Shown in pieces: positions 46,727 to 54,444 of a stretch of 59,779 nt of DNA. The stretch's first letter is position 1. Every line of letters begins with the position of its first letter. A program made the translations under genes and the position numbers. The stretch spans positions 1 to 59,779 of the forward strand of contig JAUMZL010000014.1 of NCBI GenBank assembly GCA_030528155.1, in the 5' to 3' direction. The notes below the pieces were generated by a model. That model was given only the letters and a program-made list of their open reading frames with translations. It ran no database searches and was not told where the DNA came from. This DNA is from Aerococcus sp. (GTDB taxonomy: Bacteria; Bacillota; Bacilli; Lactobacillales; Aerococcaceae).

Positions 46727-46745
46727 AGGACAGGAGTGTGTCTAT

Positions 46746-47942
46746 ATGAAAATTTCGCAACGCATTCAAAATCTGGCAGAATCCAAAACCCTCCAGAGCA
46801 GCGATCGAGCTCGTGCACTTAAACAGCAGGGGATTGATGTCATCTCGCTCACGGTGGGGGAACCAGATTTTAATACGCCAGACTATATTCGTACCGCTGC
46901 TAAAGAGGCCATTGACGCAGGGGTTGGCGATCATTACACCCCAGCCAAGGGTGCAGGTGATGTTCGTCAAGGGATTGTAGATTATGTGGAACGACACAGT
47001 CAGGTGAGTTATACCCCTAATGAAGTCTTTGTCGCTAATGGAGCTAAGGCTGTACTTTATGATCTCTTCCAAGTATTGGTTGATCCCGGCGATGAAGTAT
47101 TGATTCCTGAACCATATTGGGTCAGTTACGCTGAACAAGTTCGTTTAGCGGGAGGAGAGCCGGTATTGATTCCGTTAGATGCTAACGATGGGTTCAAGTT
47201 AACTCCAGAAGCATTAGCCAAAGCCCTCAGTGATAAGAGTGTGTTATTGATTCTGAACTATCCAAACAATCCAACGGGGACAGTCCTTTCCAAAGAGGAG
47301 CTCCAAGCCATCGGAGATTTCTGTGTGGCTCATGACTTATTGATTTTAGCCGATGAAATTTACAATGAGTTGATGTATGAAACCTTACCAAATGGGTTTT
47401 CAATAGCTTCTCTATCACCAGCAATTAAGGCACAGACAATTGTGGTGAATGGTGTTTCCAAAACATACGCCATGACCGGGTGGCGGATTGGCTACTGCTT
47501 GGCGGATGAAACGATCATCAAAGCGCTGGCAAAATTTGCCGGGCAAGTGAGCGGAAATCCCGCTGGTGTCAGCCAATATGCAACGCTCGGTGCGCTGAAG
47601 GTGGATGATGAAGCTGTTACTTCCATGTATAATGCCTTCAAAGCGCGCCGTGATAAAGGGTATGCGCTATTGACAGCTCTACCCGGTTTTGAACTGCCCA
47701 ATAAACCAGCTGGTGCCTTTTATTTCTTCCCGAATTGCCAAAAAGCAGCTGAACTGTCGGGGTATGATAGCGTGGATGATTTTTCACTGGCACTATTGGA
47801 AGAAGCGCATGTGGCTACGGTCGTTGGGAGTGCATTCGGGTTGCCAGAACATTTAAGATTGAGTTATGCGACGAGTGAGAAACAATTTGCTGAAGCAATG
47901 GCGCGTATTCGCCACTTCATGGAACAAAAAATGACAGATTAG
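46746..47942 (+). CDS. aspB: Aspartate aminotransferase-like enzyme (class I/II)
   Basis: A 398-aa PLP-dependent transaminase, converting aspartate and 2-oxoglutarate to oxaloacetate and glutamate. SLTVGEPDFNTPDYI, NYPNNPTG, ILADEIYNELMY and the PLP lysine in SKTYAMTGWRIGY (about 240) are all canonical, with RLSYATS near the end. ATG 46746 is preceded by an AGGAGTG stretch; the longer reading from 46692 lies within ypmB. It could supply oxaloacetate to the decarboxylase encoded 3-7 kb downstream, although no co-regulation is seen. Confidence 0.92.
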   Translation: MKISQRIQNLAESKTLQSSDRARALKQQGIDVISLTVGEPDFNTPDYIRTAAKEAIDAGVGDHYTPAKGAGDVRQGIVDYVERHSQVSYTPNEVFVANGAKAVLYDLFQVLVDPGDEVLIPEPYWVSYAEQVRLAGGEPVLIPLDANDGFKLTPEALAKALSDKSVLLILNYPNNPTGTVLSKEELQAIGDFCVAHDLLILADEIYNELMYETLPNGFSIASLSPAIKAQTIVVNGVSKTYAMTGWRIGYCLADETIIKALAKFAGQVSGNPAGVSQYATLGALKVDDEAVTSMYNAFKARRDKGYALLTALPGFELPNKPAGAFYFFPNCQKAAELSGYDSVDDFSLALLEEAHVATVVGSAFGLPEHLRLSYATSEKQFAEAMARIRHFMEQKMTD

Positions 47943-48664: not shown

Positions 48665-48685
48665 GTTAGTTATTATGATTTCCCA

Positions 48686-48865
48686 TTATTTGATCAAAGG
48701 AACAACATTGAGTATCCCAGCGGTAGCAATGAAGATAATGAAAATACCAATGGCCCATTTGCCCGATTTTTTTTGCCATTCCACCATGTCCAAACCGGTC
48801 ATGTTGAGCAACAAGTAGATAAAAGCCACTAGCGGACTCAATAGGTGGAAGGCTTGTCCCTGTTG
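48686..48865 (-). pseudogene. 3' remnant of a membrane transporter, probably CitMHS citrate carrier
   Basis: On the minus strand an open frame of about 59 codons runs from a stop at 48866-48868 to a stop at 48688-48686. It reads GQAFHLLSPLVAFIYLLLN, then TGLDMVEWQKKSGKWAIG and a hydrophobic helix ending NVVPLIK. This resembles the last two helices of CitMHS citrate transporters (HLLSPLVPxxYLL and a DHQ/EWQK turn, as I recall the family). There is no start codon context and the remaining ~380 residues are missing. It is broken against the truncated citG. Family assignment is moderate; that it is a transporter fragment is likely. Confidence 0.55.
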
Positions 48866-49192
48866 TTAAAGGAGCGCGCACTTCACCCTAAAACAGCACC
48901 ATTAAGGGTATTGTTGTACTTAATGTCAGTGACTCAGGATACTAATGTGATCCACCGCGGGGGCATTGAGGGGTACAACTGGTTACGCGCGCGTGCCCAC
49001 ACGTTATATGCCAAAAATCTTAAGGATGAAGAGCTGCTGCTCGCTTTGCAGGGCTTTAACCAAGAATGTATTGAACGGCGCATTAGTCCTGGTGGAGCCG
49101 CCGATCTATTGAGTTTGACACTCTATCTGGAGCGTATCTTCACTCATTTGAATCGTCCAGCTCATGCCTTAGTGGAATCAATAAAAAAATGA
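48845..49192 (+). pseudogene. citG: 5'-truncated citG (triphosphoribosyl-dephospho-CoA synthase)
   Basis: A 115-codon frame matching only the C-terminal third of CitG. CitG condenses ATP with dephospho-CoA to make the citrate lyase prosthetic group precursor and is normally about 280-300 aa. The DTNVIHRGGIEGYNWLRARA segment and RRISPGGAADLLSLTLYLER are the closing family motifs; the N-terminal ATP-binding part is absent. A GTG at 48845 opens the frame but no ribosome site is seen and a stop precedes it. The first bases overlap the transporter remnant on the other strand, marking the break point of a rearrangement. Confidence 0.75.
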
Positions 49193-49218
49193 CAAACAAA
49201 TACGATTGCTATCTACAA

Positions 49219-49240
49219 TGAAGCGTTTTCTTGATATAAT
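49219..49240 (+). promoter_or_regulatory. Promoter and cre-like site of the OAD operon
   Basis: An extended -10 TGATATAAT ends at 49240. Just upstream, TGAAGCGTTTTCTT (49219-49232) resembles a CcpA cre site with the core AAGCGTTTTC. Carbon catabolite repression of citrate and OAD genes by CcpA is known in enterococci; its action here is inferred. The -35 is weak, as often with extended -10 promoters. Confidence 0.5.
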
Positions 49241-49288
49241 CTATTTGTTACAAAAAGCAAAGCATACGAGAGAAAGTGAGGGAAGAAA

Positions 49289-49624
49289 ATGGGGTTTTTA
49301 GATCGCTTATTTAGCCACCCTAAGCGCGCAGCGATGACACCAAGGCGAGAAGAAAAGGCTAAACCTGAAGTCGCTGTGCCGACAGAAGAAGACGCGTCAA
49401 ACGTATTCTACGATACGGCGATGAGTGAGGAAGAGCGCGACTTAGTGGCGGCCATTGCCGGTGCAGCAGTCGCAAATGCGGCGTTAGATAGTCATTGGCA
49501 CATCAAAAGCATCAAAAAGATGGATATGGATGCACTGGCGGCCGTGTTATGTGCAAGTGCGGCCATTGCGGGGGATGACCCCAATAAGCAAGTAGTTGTG
49601 AAACGTGTGACCCGTTTGCAATAA
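49289..49624 (+). CDS. OAD-associated soluble protein with duplicated OadG-like motif
   Basis: A 111-aa protein leading the operon, in the place of the small OadH gene of enterococcal citrate loci. It has no membrane helix. Residues 52-78 (DLVAAIAGAAVANAAL, WHIKSIKKM) and 81-110 (MDALAAVLCASAAIAG, VVVKRVTRL) look like two copies of the C-terminal helix-strand motif of OadG gamma/delta subunits (LVAAIAAAxA...IRSIRR). The first 45 residues are charged and flexible. It may be the peripheral part of a split gamma subunit. Family call is by eye and moderate. Confidence 0.55.
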   Translation: MGFLDRLFSHPKRAAMTPRREEKAKPEVAVPTEEDASNVFYDTAMSEEERDLVAAIAGAAVANAALDSHWHIKSIKKMDMDALAAVLCASAAIAGDDPNKQVVVKRVTRLQ

Positions 49625-49669
49625 CGGATAAGGTTTGCAATAGGTTTCTTAGTTAGAGGAGGAAAACAG

Positions 49670-50059
49670 ATGTTACGTAAATTTCGCATGCGAGTAAATG
49701 GCAAAGAGTATCTTGTCGAGATGGAAGAGTTGGGAGAAACGCCTACAGCAATGGATTCCGCTCCAATACAAAAAGCAGCACCAAAACCAGCTGAAGCTCC
49801 AGCTGCGTCAACCCCAGCTCCCCAACCACAAGTGGGGGCCGGTGAAACCGTGACTGCCCCAATGCCGGGGACGGTTTTGGATATTTTGGTGAAGGTGGGC
49901 GACCATGTCGAGGAAGACCAACCCATTTTGATTTTGGAAGCGATGAAGATGGAAAACAAAATTGTGTCTCCACTCACAGGTACTATTACGGGCATTACCG
50001 TAGCGAAAGGTGATAGTGCGGACGTCGATCAAGTTCTATTTACCGTACAAGGCGCATAA
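49670..50059 (+). CDS. oadD: Biotin carrier subunit of oxaloacetate decarboxylase
   Basis: A 129-aa biotin acceptor protein. The C-terminal ~70 residues form the biotinyl domain with EAMKMENK (biotinylated Lys about 96) and APMPGTVLDILVKVGD. A Pro/Ala/Glu linker (about 35-60) joins it to a short N-terminal strand region (FRMRVNGKEYLVEMEEL). In Lactobacillales OAD the carrier is separate from the alpha chain, in agreement with the lack of a biotin domain in OadA here. AGAGGAGG precedes the ATG. Confidence 0.92.
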   Translation: MLRKFRMRVNGKEYLVEMEELGETPTAMDSAPIQKAAPKPAEAPAASTPAPQPQVGAGETVTAPMPGTVLDILVKVGDHVEEDQPILILEAMKMENKIVSPLTGTITGITVAKGDSADVDQVLFTVQGA

Positions 50060-50119
50060 GCTTCATAAAAGTCACACACTAGCCATAACTTGATGAAATA
50101 AGAGGAGGCGGATATTAGT

Positions 50120-51235
50120 ATGTCCATGATTTTCGATGGCTTTTTAGCAGTCACATGGAAAGAGATTGTCATGATGCTTGTGGGAAGTATTTTGATTTAT
50201 CTCGGTATCAAGAAAGAATATGAACCGACATTGCTGATTCCTATGGGGCTCGGTGCCATTATGGTGAATATTCCTCATTCCGGAATGATTACGCAACCGG
50301 GAGGGCCAATCGGCGTACTCGATACGCTCTTTAAGGCCGGCATTGAAACGGAATTATTTCCATTGTTAATTTTTATCGGGATTGGGGCCATGATTGATTT
50401 CGGCCCACTGTTGCAAAATCCCTCCATGCTTTTCTTCGGAGCAGCCGCGCAATTTGGGATTTTCTTCACTTTATTTGTCGCATTATTTGCTGGCTTTTCG
50501 CTTCCCGAAGCCGCATCGATTGGGATCATTGGAGCCGCGGATGGGCCAACTTCGGTCTTTGTTTCGGGCCAACTAGCCAAGAATTTACTAGGGCCCATTA
50601 CTGTTGCTGCCTATTCGTACATGTCATTGGTGCCTATTATCCAGCCACCAGCAATTAAGTTAGTGACGACCAAGGCAGAACGGCAAATTCGCATGAAATA
50701 TTCTGCTGAAAAAGTCTCCAAACGAACCAAAATTCTTTTCCCTATCATTATCACGGCGATTGCAGGCTTCGTAGCGCCAGCGTCCCTACCACTTGTTGGC
50801 TTTTTAATGTACGGGAATTTGATGCGCGAATGTGGCGTATTGGACCGTCTGAGCGATACCGCTCAGAACGCATTGGTTAATTTGATCACTATTCTATTGG
50901 GGCTCTCTATTGCCTCAACAATGACGGCGGATCAATTTTTGACATTGCGCACTCTCTATATTATTGGTTTTGGGTTAGTGGCTTTTGTGATGGACTCTAT
51001 CGGTGGGGTCTTATTCTGCAAATTGCTGAATCTCTTCCGCAAAGAAAAATTAAACCCAATGATTGGGGCAGCGGGGATTTCCGCCTTCCCTATGTCAGCG
51101 CGCGTGGTACAGCGTTTAGCCACGGAAGCTGATCCTAAGAACTTTATCCTCAATTATGCGATCAGTGCCAACGTTGCTGGGCAAATTGGGTCTGTCGTTG
51201 CCGGAGGATTGGTGCTTGGGTACTTCATGCACTAG
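50120..51235 (+). CDS. oadB: Na+-pumping oxaloacetate decarboxylase beta subunit
   Basis: A 371-aa membrane protein with about nine to eleven helices, the ion-translocating subunit that decarboxylates carboxybiotin and pumps Na+. Conserved stretches: the glycine-rich LLIFIGIGAMIDFGPLL, IIGAADGPTSVFVSGQLA with the functional Asp, SMTADQFLT-like cytosolic loop and the ending NYAISANVAGQIGSVVAGG. Full length for the family. AGAGGAGG precedes the ATG. Confidence 0.93.
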   Translation: MSMIFDGFLAVTWKEIVMMLVGSILIYLGIKKEYEPTLLIPMGLGAIMVNIPHSGMITQPGGPIGVLDTLFKAGIETELFPLLIFIGIGAMIDFGPLLQNPSMLFFGAAAQFGIFFTLFVALFAGFSLPEAASIGIIGAADGPTSVFVSGQLAKNLLGPITVAAYSYMSLVPIIQPPAIKLVTTKAERQIRMKYSAEKVSKRTKILFPIIITAIAGFVAPASLPLVGFLMYGNLMRECGVLDRLSDTAQNALVNLITILLGLSIASTMTADQFLTLRTLYIIGFGLVAFVMDSIGGVLFCKLLNLFRKEKLNPMIGAAGISAFPMSARVVQRLATEADPKNFILNYAISANVAGQIGSVVAGGLVLGYFMH

Positions 51236-51262
51236 CGATGAATAGAGGAAAGGAGAAGAGCT

Positions 51263-51394
51263 ATGCCAGAATTTGAAGTGATACGTTCTGCATTAGAACT
51301 ATTTGTGGTTGGCTGGGGTGGCATCTTTGTCGTGATGCTATTCTTATATGCCATCATTAAACTTTTACTGAAATTGGATGCCAAAGGGAAATAA
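51263..51394 (+). CDS. 43-aa single-helix peptide, OadG-like membrane anchor
   Basis: A small gene between oadB and citC: MPEFEVIRSALELFVVGWGG followed by a hydrophobic helix (to about residue 37) and LDAKGK. The helix plus FxxGWGGIF pattern resembles the N-terminal anchor of OadG gamma subunits (LxELxxxGxxxVFxFL). The Pro-rich linker and C-terminal part of OadG are missing; they may be provided by the 111-aa protein at 49289. AAAGGAG lies nine bases upstream, and spacing to the next gene is six bases, so it is certainly translated in the operon context. Confidence 0.75.
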   Translation: MPEFEVIRSALELFVVGWGGIFVVMLFLYAIIKLLLKLDAKGK

Positions 51395-51400
51395 TGGCTG

Positions 51401-52444
51401 ATGTCTGATAAGGAATTGCAAGTCAAAGAACTGTGGGTGAAGGACAGTACTTATGATTTCAAACAATGGGAGCAGTTACTGCTTGCTTCAGATTTAAAGC
51501 CTGGAGAACCAGTAGATAGCGTTTATGGCTGGTTTGATGGGGATCAATTAGTAGCAAGCGGGGCACTCTTCGAAAACATTATCAAATACTTAGCGATTGA
51601 GCCAATGTATCAAGGAGGAAGCACTTTTCATCAGTTGTTGACCACGCTCACCCAAGCCCTCTATCGGCAGGGAGAAACCAAGGTATTTGTCTATACCAAG
51701 CCAGAACATCGCCAGCGTTTTGAGGCTTTGAATTTTACGGTTATCGCTCAAACGACTGCGGTTTGCTTCCTAGAAAAAGGAACGCCGACATTATCGGATT
51801 ATTTAGCCACTATCCCAGTAAAAACAGCGCAAGGGACAGCGGGGGCCATTGTGATGAATGCTAATCCATTGACATGGGGCCATCGCTATTTAGTGGAGCA
51901 GGCCAGTCGCTTATGTGATCAGCTATACCTCTTCGTCGTTTCGACGGATCGCTCGCTTTTTACGACCGCTGAACGGATAGCGCTAGTGAAAAATGGCGTG
52001 AGTGACTTAGCCAATGTCAGTGTTTATGAGAGCGGGGACTACATGGTGTCAACTAAGACATTTCCTAGTTATTTTTTAAAAGGAAATCAAGATAAGGTTG
52101 CCGTTCAGGCGCAATTGGATGCCACCTTATTTGCTGAAAAAATTGCACCTGCTCTCCACATTACGCAGCGCTTTGTAGGGAGTGAACCCTATTCAAACAC
52201 AACCGCGTGCTACAACCAACAATTGAAAGCAACCATGAATGGAAAAGTAAGGGTGAACGAGATACCGAGGAAATCCTCCAGCGATGGACAACCCATTTCG
52301 GCCTCACGAGTACGCACAGCTATTTTACAAGAAGACTGGGCGTTAGTGACGCGCTTGGTGCCCCAAAGTACAGCCGATTATATTTGGTCACACCGTCAGT
52401 CACTTAGACAGAGACAACAAGAAATGAAGGCAGAGAATGGATAA
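51401..52444 (+). CDS. citC: [Citrate (pro-3S)-lyase] ligase
   Basis: A 347-aa CitC, which acetylates the thiol of the citrate lyase prosthetic group with ATP and acetate to activate the enzyme. An N-terminal GNAT-like region (about 1-130) precedes the nucleotidyltransferase domain with MNANPLTWGHRYLVEQAS (the N-A-N-P-x-T-x-GH motif) and the ending PISASRVRTAI. Complete in length. Its last eight bases overlap citX. The genes for its substrate enzyme (citD, citE, citF), usually next in the operon, are not in the window. Confidence 0.92.
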   Translation: MSDKELQVKELWVKDSTYDFKQWEQLLLASDLKPGEPVDSVYGWFDGDQLVASGALFENIIKYLAIEPMYQGGSTFHQLLTTLTQALYRQGETKVFVYTKPEHRQRFEALNFTVIAQTTAVCFLEKGTPTLSDYLATIPVKTAQGTAGAIVMNANPLTWGHRYLVEQASRLCDQLYLFVVSTDRSLFTTAERIALVKNGVSDLANVSVYESGDYMVSTKTFPSYFLKGNQDKVAVQAQLDATLFAEKIAPALHITQRFVGSEPYSNTTACYNQQLKATMNGKVRVNEIPRKSSSDGQPISASRVRTAILQEDWALVTRLVPQSTADYIWSHRQSLRQRQQEMKAENG

Positions 52445-53021
52445 AGAAGCTATACTGATGGCTCTCACTCAGGGGGAAGAGGCCACATTAGACGATGTTT
52501 TAATTAATCGTGAGCAGCGTCAATATCGCGAACGGCAGTGGTTACAGCACGCGCCGACGCAGACGCTCGTCGTTTTAAAGCTCAATACGCCAGGACCGAT
52601 CAAAGCGAATGCGCTGTTATCACAAATCAGTGCCCAAAATGAAGCCACATTCATGAAACGATTGCTGGATCAAGGTGTAGTGGTACAAAAACATCAACGT
52701 TTTGATCAAAAGACAGGTGTGGAGAATTTTTGGTTGTTGGATACGCCAGATGCCTTGGAAATAAAGCGGCTGACGACAGCCATTGAATCAGCTTCCTTTT
52801 ATGGACGGCTGGCTGATTTTGATGTGTATCGCTATCGCAATGGCCAGGTAGAAGCCATTAAGCGCACCCAGTTAAATCTTCCAGTCCGTCAGTGCTACGT
52901 CTGCAAACAGCCAGCTGCTGTCTGTGGGCGCACGCGGCGTCATAGCGTCGCGGTATTATTGCAAACCCTAGCTGAAAAATTATGTGAAGAAAGCCATCAT
53001 TCATCAACCATAGAGGGATAA
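52437..53021 (+). CDS. citX: Apo-citrate lyase prosthetic group transferase CitX
   Basis: A 194-aa CitX, which attaches the phosphoribosyl-dephospho-CoA group to the citrate lyase acyl carrier protein. Family features: LINREQRQYRERQWL near the N-terminus, LNTPGPIKAN, and the C-terminal RQCYVCKQPAAVCGRTRRHS with its Cys pair and GRTRRH motif. The ATG lies inside the citC end. Both its partner CitG (truncated here) and its target CitD (absent) appear missing, so it may have no job unless copies exist elsewhere. Confidence 0.88.
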   Translation: MDKEAILMALTQGEEATLDDVLINREQRQYRERQWLQHAPTQTLVVLKLNTPGPIKANALLSQISAQNEATFMKRLLDQGVVVQKHQRFDQKTGVENFWLLDTPDALEIKRLTTAIESASFYGRLADFDVYRYRNGQVEAIKRTQLNLPVRQCYVCKQPAAVCGRTRRHSVAVLLQTLAEKLCEESHHSSTIEG

Positions 53022-53034
53022 AGGAGTGGATACA

Positions 53035-54444
53035 ATGACAAAAGAGATTCAAGTGGTTGAAACCGTACTGCGAGACGGCCACCAGAGTTTAGCGGCGACA
53101 CGAATGAGCACAAAGCAGATGCTGCCCATCCTGAAAACCATGGATGACGCCGGTTACTACGCCCTCGAATGTTGGGGCGGGGCGACATTTGATGCCTGCC
53201 TGCGCTTCCTCAATGAAGACCCATGGGAACGATTGCGCACCATCAGAAAACACGTTACCCATACGAAATTGCAAATGTTATTGCGTGGCCAAAATCTGCT
53301 AGGCTACCACAACTATCCTGACGATGTCGTTGAAGCTTTTATTGAACGCTCTATCGCCAATGGTATTGATATTATTCGTATTTTTGATGCCTTGAATGAC
53401 CCACGCAACTTGAAAACAGCGATTGAGGCGACTAAGAAATACGGTGGTGAAGCACAAGGAACGATTTGCTACACCATCAGTGAAGTACATACCGATGCTT
53501 ATTACATTGCTCTGGCGAAACAATTGGAAGACATGGGGGCTGATTCCATCTGTATCAAAGATATGGCTGGGATTTTAACCCCACATCGCGCGTTTGAGTT
53601 AGTGAGTGGAATTAAATCAGCAGTGTCCATTCCATTAGATATCCATACGCACGCCACAGCGGGAACAGCTGCTATGACCCTTTTAAAAGCTGTAGAGGCC
53701 GGCGTGGAACGAATTGACACGGCGATCTCTCCCTTTGCTGGGGGGACGAGTCAAGCGCCTACCGAGACATTACACATTGCCTTGGAAGAGTTTGGAGTGG
53801 ATGACCATCTGAAGCTCGATCACTTAGAAGAGATTGCCGATTATTTCGAACCGATTCGTACCCACTTCCTCAATGAAGGTTTGCTCAATCCAAAAATCTT
53901 GGAAGTGGTGCCACGAGCGCTGATTTATCAAGTTCCTGGTGGGATGCTCTCAAATCTCTACAATCAGCTGAAAGAAGCTGGTCAAGAAGCTAAATACGAT
54001 GCGGTGCTCAAGGAAGTACCGACTGTGCGGGCCGAACTAGGATACCCACCACTAGTCACCCCACTGTCGCAGATGGTGGGCACGCAAGCCGTGATGAATA
54101 TCCTGACAGGCAAACGCTATCAGATGATTCCTGATGAAATCAAAAATTACGTGCGCGGTCGCTATGGCCAATCGCCAGCTCCAATTGCTCCAGAAATTAA
54201 ACAGCAAATTATTGGTAATGAGCCAGTGATGACGACACGTCCTGCCGATGATTTAGAGCCAGGCTTGGTGAAAGCGGCCAAAGAACTCGGAGATTTGGCA
54301 ACCTCCAAGGAGGATATCCTAAGTTATGCGGTTTTCCCTGAACAAGCGAAGAAATTTTTAAATAAACGGCGCGATCCGTGGTATGACGTGCCGATTCAGC
54401 ATGTGGAAGTTACGGTAGACCCAGCGCTTGGATTTGACGGTTAG
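53035..54444 (+). CDS. oadA: Oxaloacetate decarboxylase alpha subunit (carboxyltransferase)
   Basis: A 469-aa carboxyltransferase that moves CO2 from oxaloacetate to biotin on OadD, releasing pyruvate. VETVLRDGHQSLAATRM opens the TIM barrel; IRIFDALNDPRN, DSICIKDMAGILTPHRA (catalytic Lys) and DIHTHATAGTAAM (metal His pair) follow. The C-terminal conserved carboxylase region ends at about 469 without a biotinyl domain. ATG 53035 is chosen since AAAGGAG lies too near GTG 53026. It is the last gene of the operon. Confidence 0.94.
   Translation: MTKEIQVVETVLRDGHQSLAATRMSTKQMLPILKTMDDAGYYALECWGGATFDACLRFLNEDPWERLRTIRKHVTHTKLQMLLRGQNLLGYHNYPDDVVEAFIERSIANGIDIIRIFDALNDPRNLKTAIEATKKYGGEAQGTICYTISEVHTDAYYIALAKQLEDMGADSICIKDMAGILTPHRAFELVSGIKSAVSIPLDIHTHATAGTAAMTLLKAVEAGVERIDTAISPFAGGTSQAPTETLHIALEEFGVDDHLKLDHLEEIADYFEPIRTHFLNEGLLNPKILEVVPRALIYQVPGGMLSNLYNQLKEAGQEAKYDAVLKEVPTVRAELGYPPLVTPLSQMVGTQAVMNILTGKRYQMIPDEIKNYVRGRYGQSPAPIAPEIKQQIIGNEPVMTTRPADDLEPGLVKAAKELGDLATSKEDILSYAVFPEQAKKFLNKRRDPWYDVPIQHVEVTVDPALGFDG

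Follow-up and report, generated by a model that had tools for sequence, protein, structure and literature searches.

An Aerococcus citrate-fermentation cluster probably disabled by one recent deletion, with its oxaloacetate decarboxylase gene set retained

Genes and gene fragments at the locus

The DNA analysed here (the window, 59,779 nucleotides) is the whole of contig JAUMZL010000014.1, contig C4 of an Aerococcus sp. assembly (GCA_030528155.1) of 1.67 Mb, made of 38 contigs and 95.5% complete. Between 48.6 and 54.4 kb it contains, in this order, dnaD, the end of a citrate transporter gene (minus strand), the end of citG (plus strand) and an operon, oadH-oadD-oadB-small oadG-citC-citX-oadA (plus strand), which combines the genes of a membrane-bound oxaloacetate decarboxylase (OAD) with two accessory genes of citrate lyase. 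The locus is probably a citrate-fermentation cluster that was disabled by one recent deletion and in which the OAD set was retained.

The preliminary description of this DNA reported a C-terminal CitMHS fragment abutting a C-terminal CitG fragment, and we found the two matches to meet at 48851-48860. The transporter gene, citH (CitMHS type), is represented by its 3' end (48686-48859, minus strand), i.e. 57 codons and the stop, its 5' seven-eighths being gone. It was the sole match in the genome (tblastn, 73%) and corresponded to residues 399-458 of 458 alone, so that no full CitMHS-type transporter was present; 2HCT-type transporters were not searched. Of citG, which encodes triphosphoribosyl-dephospho-CoA synthase, the 3' third is left (48851-49192, plus strand), in an open reading frame (ORF) that starts at 48845, just downstream of an in-frame TAG at 48842. 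This ORF (48845-49192) covers positions 199-283 of 284 of PF01874 (CitG) alone (E = 2.7e-21) and is not a full-length CitG. When the window was aligned to the 3' ends of the corresponding genes of three genomes of the same genus that hold complete citDEF (G001, G002, and G012), the citH-like and citG-like matches shared about 10 bases (48851-48860): the transporter match ran through GGAAGGCTTGTCCC, and the citG match began with GGCTTG. This overlap would fit a deletion via a short shared sequence.

We also determined the gene content of the genome and compared it with a panel of 100 genomes that includes it. No match to CitF or CitD was found genome-wide, and the sole match to CitE, which scored 21.3 bits and lay in a frame of 616 aa, did not reach the cut-off. 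A similar weak match in a frame of 588-616 aa occurred in all 15 genomes of the genus included in the CitE search; from its length and ubiquity, this frame is probably pyruvate kinase. The window genome is therefore devoid of recognizable citrate lyase subunits. CitX gave one match and CitG and the transporter one each, both fragments, while CitC gave one strong match and a weak one to a nucleotidyltransferase of a type widespread in the panel. The preliminary description had proposed that the strain lost citrate cleavage but keeps OAD, and this is borne out by the genome-wide gene content, which supports the loss of both citrate cleavage and citrate uptake via a CitMHS-type transporter, with the full OAD set kept. 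CitF was found in 38 of the 100 genomes and CitX in 40, namely the same 38, the window genome and another Aerococcus genome, G008, in which citX is broken (tables of CitF, CitX, and CitG compared by eye); citX without citF was thus confined to two genomes. CitG was present in 39 genomes, those with CitF and, as a fragment, the window genome. The OAD beta subunit was found in 42 genomes, nine of which (the window genome, G008, and seven more) lacked CitF. No protein of the malic-enzyme family was found in the window genome. Because the soluble CitM-type decarboxylase is a malic-enzyme relative, as indicated in passages of PMC10798043, this excludes that decarboxylase, though not a source of oxaloacetate, and makes the membrane OAD the sole representative in this genome of the two types known in lactic acid bacteria. 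A PEP carboxylase was not found in the genome either.

The OAD operon is apparently intact, as first described, with all frames open. It starts with oadH (49289-49624, plus strand, like all the following genes), a small subunit named by its position and conserved start; the protein had no Pfam or NCBIfam match but aligned with the ORF at the same position in G001, G002, G012, and G008 (28-49% amino acid identity). Next come oadD (49670-50059), the biotin carrier (PF00364, E = 1.3e-21; AMKM motif), and oadB (50120-51235), the membrane beta subunit of a Na+-translocating decarboxylase (PF03977, 517 bits; TIGR01109, 447 bits for a cut-off of 191). A small OadG-related subunit of 43 aa (51263-51394; NF040909, 35.2 bits for a cut-off of 25), missing from the preliminary gene list, has counterparts of 43-44 aa in G001, G012, and G008. 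The carboxyltransferase subunit is encoded by oadA (53026-54444), which exceeded the cut-off of NF008985 (776 versus 718 bits) and fell below that of the longer TIGR01108 model (665 versus 757), the end of which covers the biotin domain, a separate gene here. Judged by sequence, the genes left in the operon make up a full membrane OAD of the OadHDBA type, with OadA, the beta subunit, a separate OadD and the small subunits (OadG-like, and OadH by position). The Enterococcus faecalis enzyme is presented, in the passages of PMC6193673 consulted, as made of a carboxyltransferase (OadA), a Na+ pump (OadB), and a biotin acceptor (OadD), plus OadH.

A probable promoter of the operon (49212-49240, plus strand; TCTACA-17-TATAAT, with TG before the -10 element) was the best of 10 promoter-like sites in the region, such sites not being enriched as a class (10 versus a mean of 9.1 after shuffling). 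Of the 44 bases starting at 49213, 40 were identical in G008, while the best of 1000 shuffles gave 27. A possible cre-like box overlaps this promoter (49217-49232; two mismatches to the consensus, one in G008).

Between the small OadG subunit and oadA lie two complete open frames: citC (51401-52444), encoding citrate lyase ligase (TIGR00124, 309 bits for a cut-off of 262), and citX (52437-53021), encoding apo-citrate lyase phosphoribosyl-dephospho-CoA transferase (TIGR03124, 147 bits for a cut-off of 105). Both are therefore above curated cut-offs, and they overlap by 8 bases, as previously noticed. CitX requires both the CitG product and the CitD carrier, and CitC requires holo-CitD. Since CitD and a full CitG are missing, no role or substrate is known that would remain for citC and citX.

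Gene order in relatives

The preliminary description had taken the adjacency of citC and citX as a sign that citDEF were cut out precisely from between them or never joined them. This was not borne out. In G001 and G002, the order is transporter (minus strand) / oadH-oadD-oadB-g-citC-citX-oadA-citD-citE-citF-[GntR-CitG fusion], where g is the small subunit (confirmed in G001 and G012; G002 not checked); in G012, it is citD-citE-citF-[GntR-CitG fusion]-SDR-transporter (minus strand) / oadH-oadD-oadB-g-citC-citX-oadA. These three genomes with complete citDEF thus all show citC next to citX: their cluster is made of two movable modules, and the adjacency is normal. An excision of citDEF between citC and citX is ruled out by these gene orders, and so is the citC-citX-oadA adjacency as a sign of decay. 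The rule that citDEF lie between citC and citX does hold for several other genera, in which we found the order OadB-CitC-CitE-CitF-CitX-OadA (e.g. L025-L030, L032, L043, and L044), and fails for the three complete clusters seen in this genus. These genomes combine citC-citX adjacency with a full set of citrate lyase genes, which partly refutes the preliminary interpretation, namely in the argument drawn from adjacency and in that argument only. A scan for OadB in wider genome contigs listed at least 80 loci; the same scan for CitX detected no relative.

The GntR(FCD)-CitG fusion (548-566 aa) was located at L018:12237-13937 (plus strand), L019:2305-4005 (minus strand), and L020:6490-8136 (plus strand). 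GntR, FCD, and CitG domains were all present in the two copies scanned (L018 and L020, from G001 and G012), and in the fusion a probable citrate regulator and the synthase of the prosthetic group would form one protein. CitG in a long frame (554-570 aa) accounted for three of the 38 full-length CitG of the panel, all in this genus; three other CitG each shared a frame of 468 aa with CitX.

Other arrangements were observed. In G012 there is another citD-citE-citF set, which is divergent and accompanied by citC (L021, 6752-11667), with no citX or citG nearby; its regulator is LysR-like by inspection of the sequence. In Lactiplantibacillus herbarum (L024, 6890-13241) and Agrilactobacillus composti (L058, 3367-12200), OAD is accompanied by a transporter and a regulator with no citF in the stretch examined; citF is elsewhere in both genomes, and citX stays at the L024 OAD locus. 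At three loci (L031, L049, and L050), the OAD genes have as neighbour a distantly related CitMHS transporter (37-38% identity), and the stretch examined contains no gene for citrate lyase. It is possible that these clusters serve another substrate; the L031 and L050 genomes hold citF elsewhere. Finally, two genomes of the genus without CitF contain CitMHS relatives in pieces or with a stop (G011:C1:2074024-2075124 and G014:C1:1758679-1760037).

In E. faecalis, the locus is given in passages of PMC3198936 as citHO / oadHDB-citCDEFX-oadA-citMG. The window resembles it by the transporter family, the GntR-type regulator, a membrane OAD with OadH and the lyase accessory genes in one divergent cluster. 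It differs in that E. faecalis has citDEF between citC and citX, with citG and the regulator separate, whereas the window lacks citDEF and the regulator and has citG and citH as fragments. G002 and G012 share with the window the operon oadH-oadD-oadB-g-citC-citX-oadA and the transporter type (OadB 82-83% identical) but keep citDEF, the GntR-CitG fusion gene and a full transporter. A broken gene inside a citrate cluster is also found in Lactococcus lactis bv. diacetylactis, as far as the passages of PMC10798043 go; there, however, the broken gene is an additional, maeP-like one and the citMCDEFGRP operon is described as transcribed, whereas the window has lost core genes. Open-licence PMC articles on citrate lyase or OAD operons, pseudogenes and Aerococcus contained, in the passages retrieved, no description of this locus. 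The same literature gave no paper on oxaloacetate decarboxylase "without citrate lyase" and, for a CitG-GntR fusion with citrate lyase, only the E. faecalis CcpA study. The citrate lyase pathway is reported, in passages of PMC6753514, in Globicatella sanguinis and not in the A. urinae strain studied.

Decay in a relative and timing of the deletion

Further evidence on the history of the locus came from G008, the closest relative on the basis of OadB identity (95%) alone. Its locus (L022) shares with the window the OAD genes, the promoter, the absence of citDEF and a citG remnant placed between dnaD and oadH, immediately before the latter (tblastn, 69% identity over 32 aligned residues, E = 1e-14 for a target of 324 bases). 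It differs by the absence of a transporter fragment, by a shorter citG remnant and by broken citC and citX: one frame change is found in citC, and citX is hit twice, by an early stop and by a frame change. In contrast, oadH, oadD, oadB, the small subunit gene and oadA (3372 nt) were all open in G008, with no lesion. The chance that all three lesions fall within the length of citC and citX was p = 0.034. The conserved promoter lies just downstream of an eroded citG remnant in G008, which favours continued expression of OAD; OAD is probably still made. The citG-oadH adjacency is probably ancestral to the window and G008.

We then looked for signs of relaxed constraint in the window. Of the residues invariant in ten comparison sequences, citC kept 64 of 69 and citX 20 of 22, while leave-one-out controls (n = 4) kept 93-100% and 82-100%, respectively. 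In relative-rate tests, in which five of the seven aligned outgroup loci were used, citC and citX were not consistently accelerated in the window: p ranged from 0.041 to 1.0 for citC and from 0.046 to 0.55 for citX against G001, both minima being obtained with outgroup L044, and from 0.079 to 0.91 and from 0.053 to 0.66 against G012. Some outgroups also gave a higher rate for OadB in the window (p as low as 0.001), and the test therefore does not single out citC and citX. Synonymous sites of these two genes were saturated in every comparison except G001-G002, and dN/dS of the window copies is therefore not usable as a measurement; between G001 and G002, it was 0.126 for citC, 0.123 for citX, 0.027 for oadA, and 0.024 for oadB. 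The view that citC and citX are weakly constrained relics thus agrees with G008, in which both are broken while OAD is open, but weak constraint was not detected in the window itself.

The two fragments likewise look constrained. That of citH was 77% identical to G001 in amino acids over its 57 codons (pN 0.16, pS 0.73), versus 63% between the intact genes of G001 and G012, and that of citG was 51% identical, versus 44% between intact genes. In a simulation of 2000 runs, with substitutions alone, a first stop appeared in citC plus citX at a median divergence of 0.9%, and in 95% of the runs by 3.6%; indels would shorten the time. Because the fragments and citC and citX still look constrained, and because the latter two are still open, the deletion in the window looks recent.

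Proposed history and alternative explanations

We infer a single deletion, of a size and recency estimated as follows. The ancestor would have had citH (minus strand) beside citD-citE-citF-[GntR-citG fusion] (plus strand), followed by oadH-oadD-oadB-g-citC-citX-oadA (plus strand), an order supported by the citG remnant that precedes oadH in G008. A single deletion of some 6 kb, reaching from within citH into citG and perhaps via the short shared sequence, would have abolished citrate uptake and taken away the subunits of citrate lyase, the regulator that responds to citrate and the greater part of CitG. The size is arithmetic on L018 lengths (1.2 kb of transporter, 0.3 kb intergenic, 2.8 kb of citDEF, 0.2 kb intergenic, and 1.4 kb of the fusion gene). 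What would be left is the membrane OAD set behind its probable own promoter, plus citC and citX. With uptake, lyase and citrate regulator gone, the remaining operon cannot act in citrate fermentation. OAD would convert oxaloacetate to pyruvate and CO2 while exporting Na+, and we conjecture that the oxaloacetate would most likely come from aspartate by transamination. It is plausible that OAD is fed in this way: a neighbour outside the operon, beside dnaD and 1.3 kb upstream of oadH, encodes an aminotransferase (46737-47942, plus strand; PF00155, E = 3.1e-75) that is a possible source of oxaloacetate from aspartate. The aspB-dnaD neighbourhood is common in Bacillota.

Several observations weigh against this reading. 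The ancestral order that we propose is seen in no relative's complete cluster. The value of p = 0.034 for G008 rests on three lesions and becomes 0.11 without the early stop in citX, the G008 assembly is 85% complete, and sequencing errors could account for some of the frame changes. The intactness of OAD in the window is uninformative, as too little time has passed since the loss for even citC and citX to have been broken. The best NCBIfam match of the aminotransferase is aspartate transaminase, but it scored under the cut-off (381 versus 617).

The most serious alternative is that everything left of the operon, with the OAD genes, is a relic kept intact by the very recency of the deletion, with no selection for OAD without citrate. 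We consider this rather doubtful, though far from negligible: in the window, citC and citX are as intact as the OAD genes despite the loss of their partners, and the OAD beta subunit is absent from 10 of the 14 other genomes of the genus. It is at odds with G008, in which the OAD genes are open and citC and citX are not, and with the occurrence of OAD-type decarboxylases without citrate lyase in the nine genomes mentioned above, seven of which, besides the window genome and G008, have a putative OAD. That citC and citX are themselves selected for another job, such as priming another acyl-carrier-type protein, would account for two full-length genes above curated cut-offs with nearly all invariant residues kept; yet the genome has no CitD-type carrier and no full CitG, both genes are broken in G008, and recency explains their intactness. 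We regard this as the most improbable of the explanations considered.

Hardly more credible is the idea that the citrate lyase genes lie in an unassembled part of the genome, as in the split of L. herbarum, where citX is with OAD and citF elsewhere. The assembly is indeed incomplete and in 38 contigs, and split clusters are real, since the OAD loci of L024 and L058 lack a citF that is found elsewhere. However, the sole citG and citH are truncated and fused directly at this locus, and neither this genome nor G008 has CitF, CitD, or a strong CitE match. It is unlikely, if less so, that the window and G008 share one old deletion, after which G008 decayed further. In each of the two, oadH is directly preceded by a citG remnant, but the break points in citG differ and synonymous sites between the two genomes are near saturation (pS 0.63-0.87 in seven genes). 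Fragments that date from an old deletion common to both would by now be randomised, whereas those of the window, and citC and citX, look constrained; independent losses are therefore likelier.

We return to the single recent deletion in the window as the preferred reading. Going beyond it, we tentatively suggest that two Aerococcus lineages may have lost the uptake of citrate and citrate lyase independently of each other, and that OAD, with its conserved promoter, may have been re-used as a stand-alone Na+ pump working on oxaloacetate derived from amino acids; we hold this as a possibility, less than an even one. The deletion itself is ordinary gene decay caught early, and the interesting part is the parallel decay in a relative together with the retention of OAD. 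The locus also indicates that an argument from local gene order, such as citC beside citX, can mislead where a genus has rearranged its cluster. The complete cluster, the fresh deletion and the advanced decay form a natural before-and-after series, from which one may learn which parts of the citrate pathway have a value of their own. Should OAD indeed be retained in the absence of citrate, a role of Na+-pumping decarboxylases in amino-acid catabolism may exist in lactic acid bacteria with small genomes.

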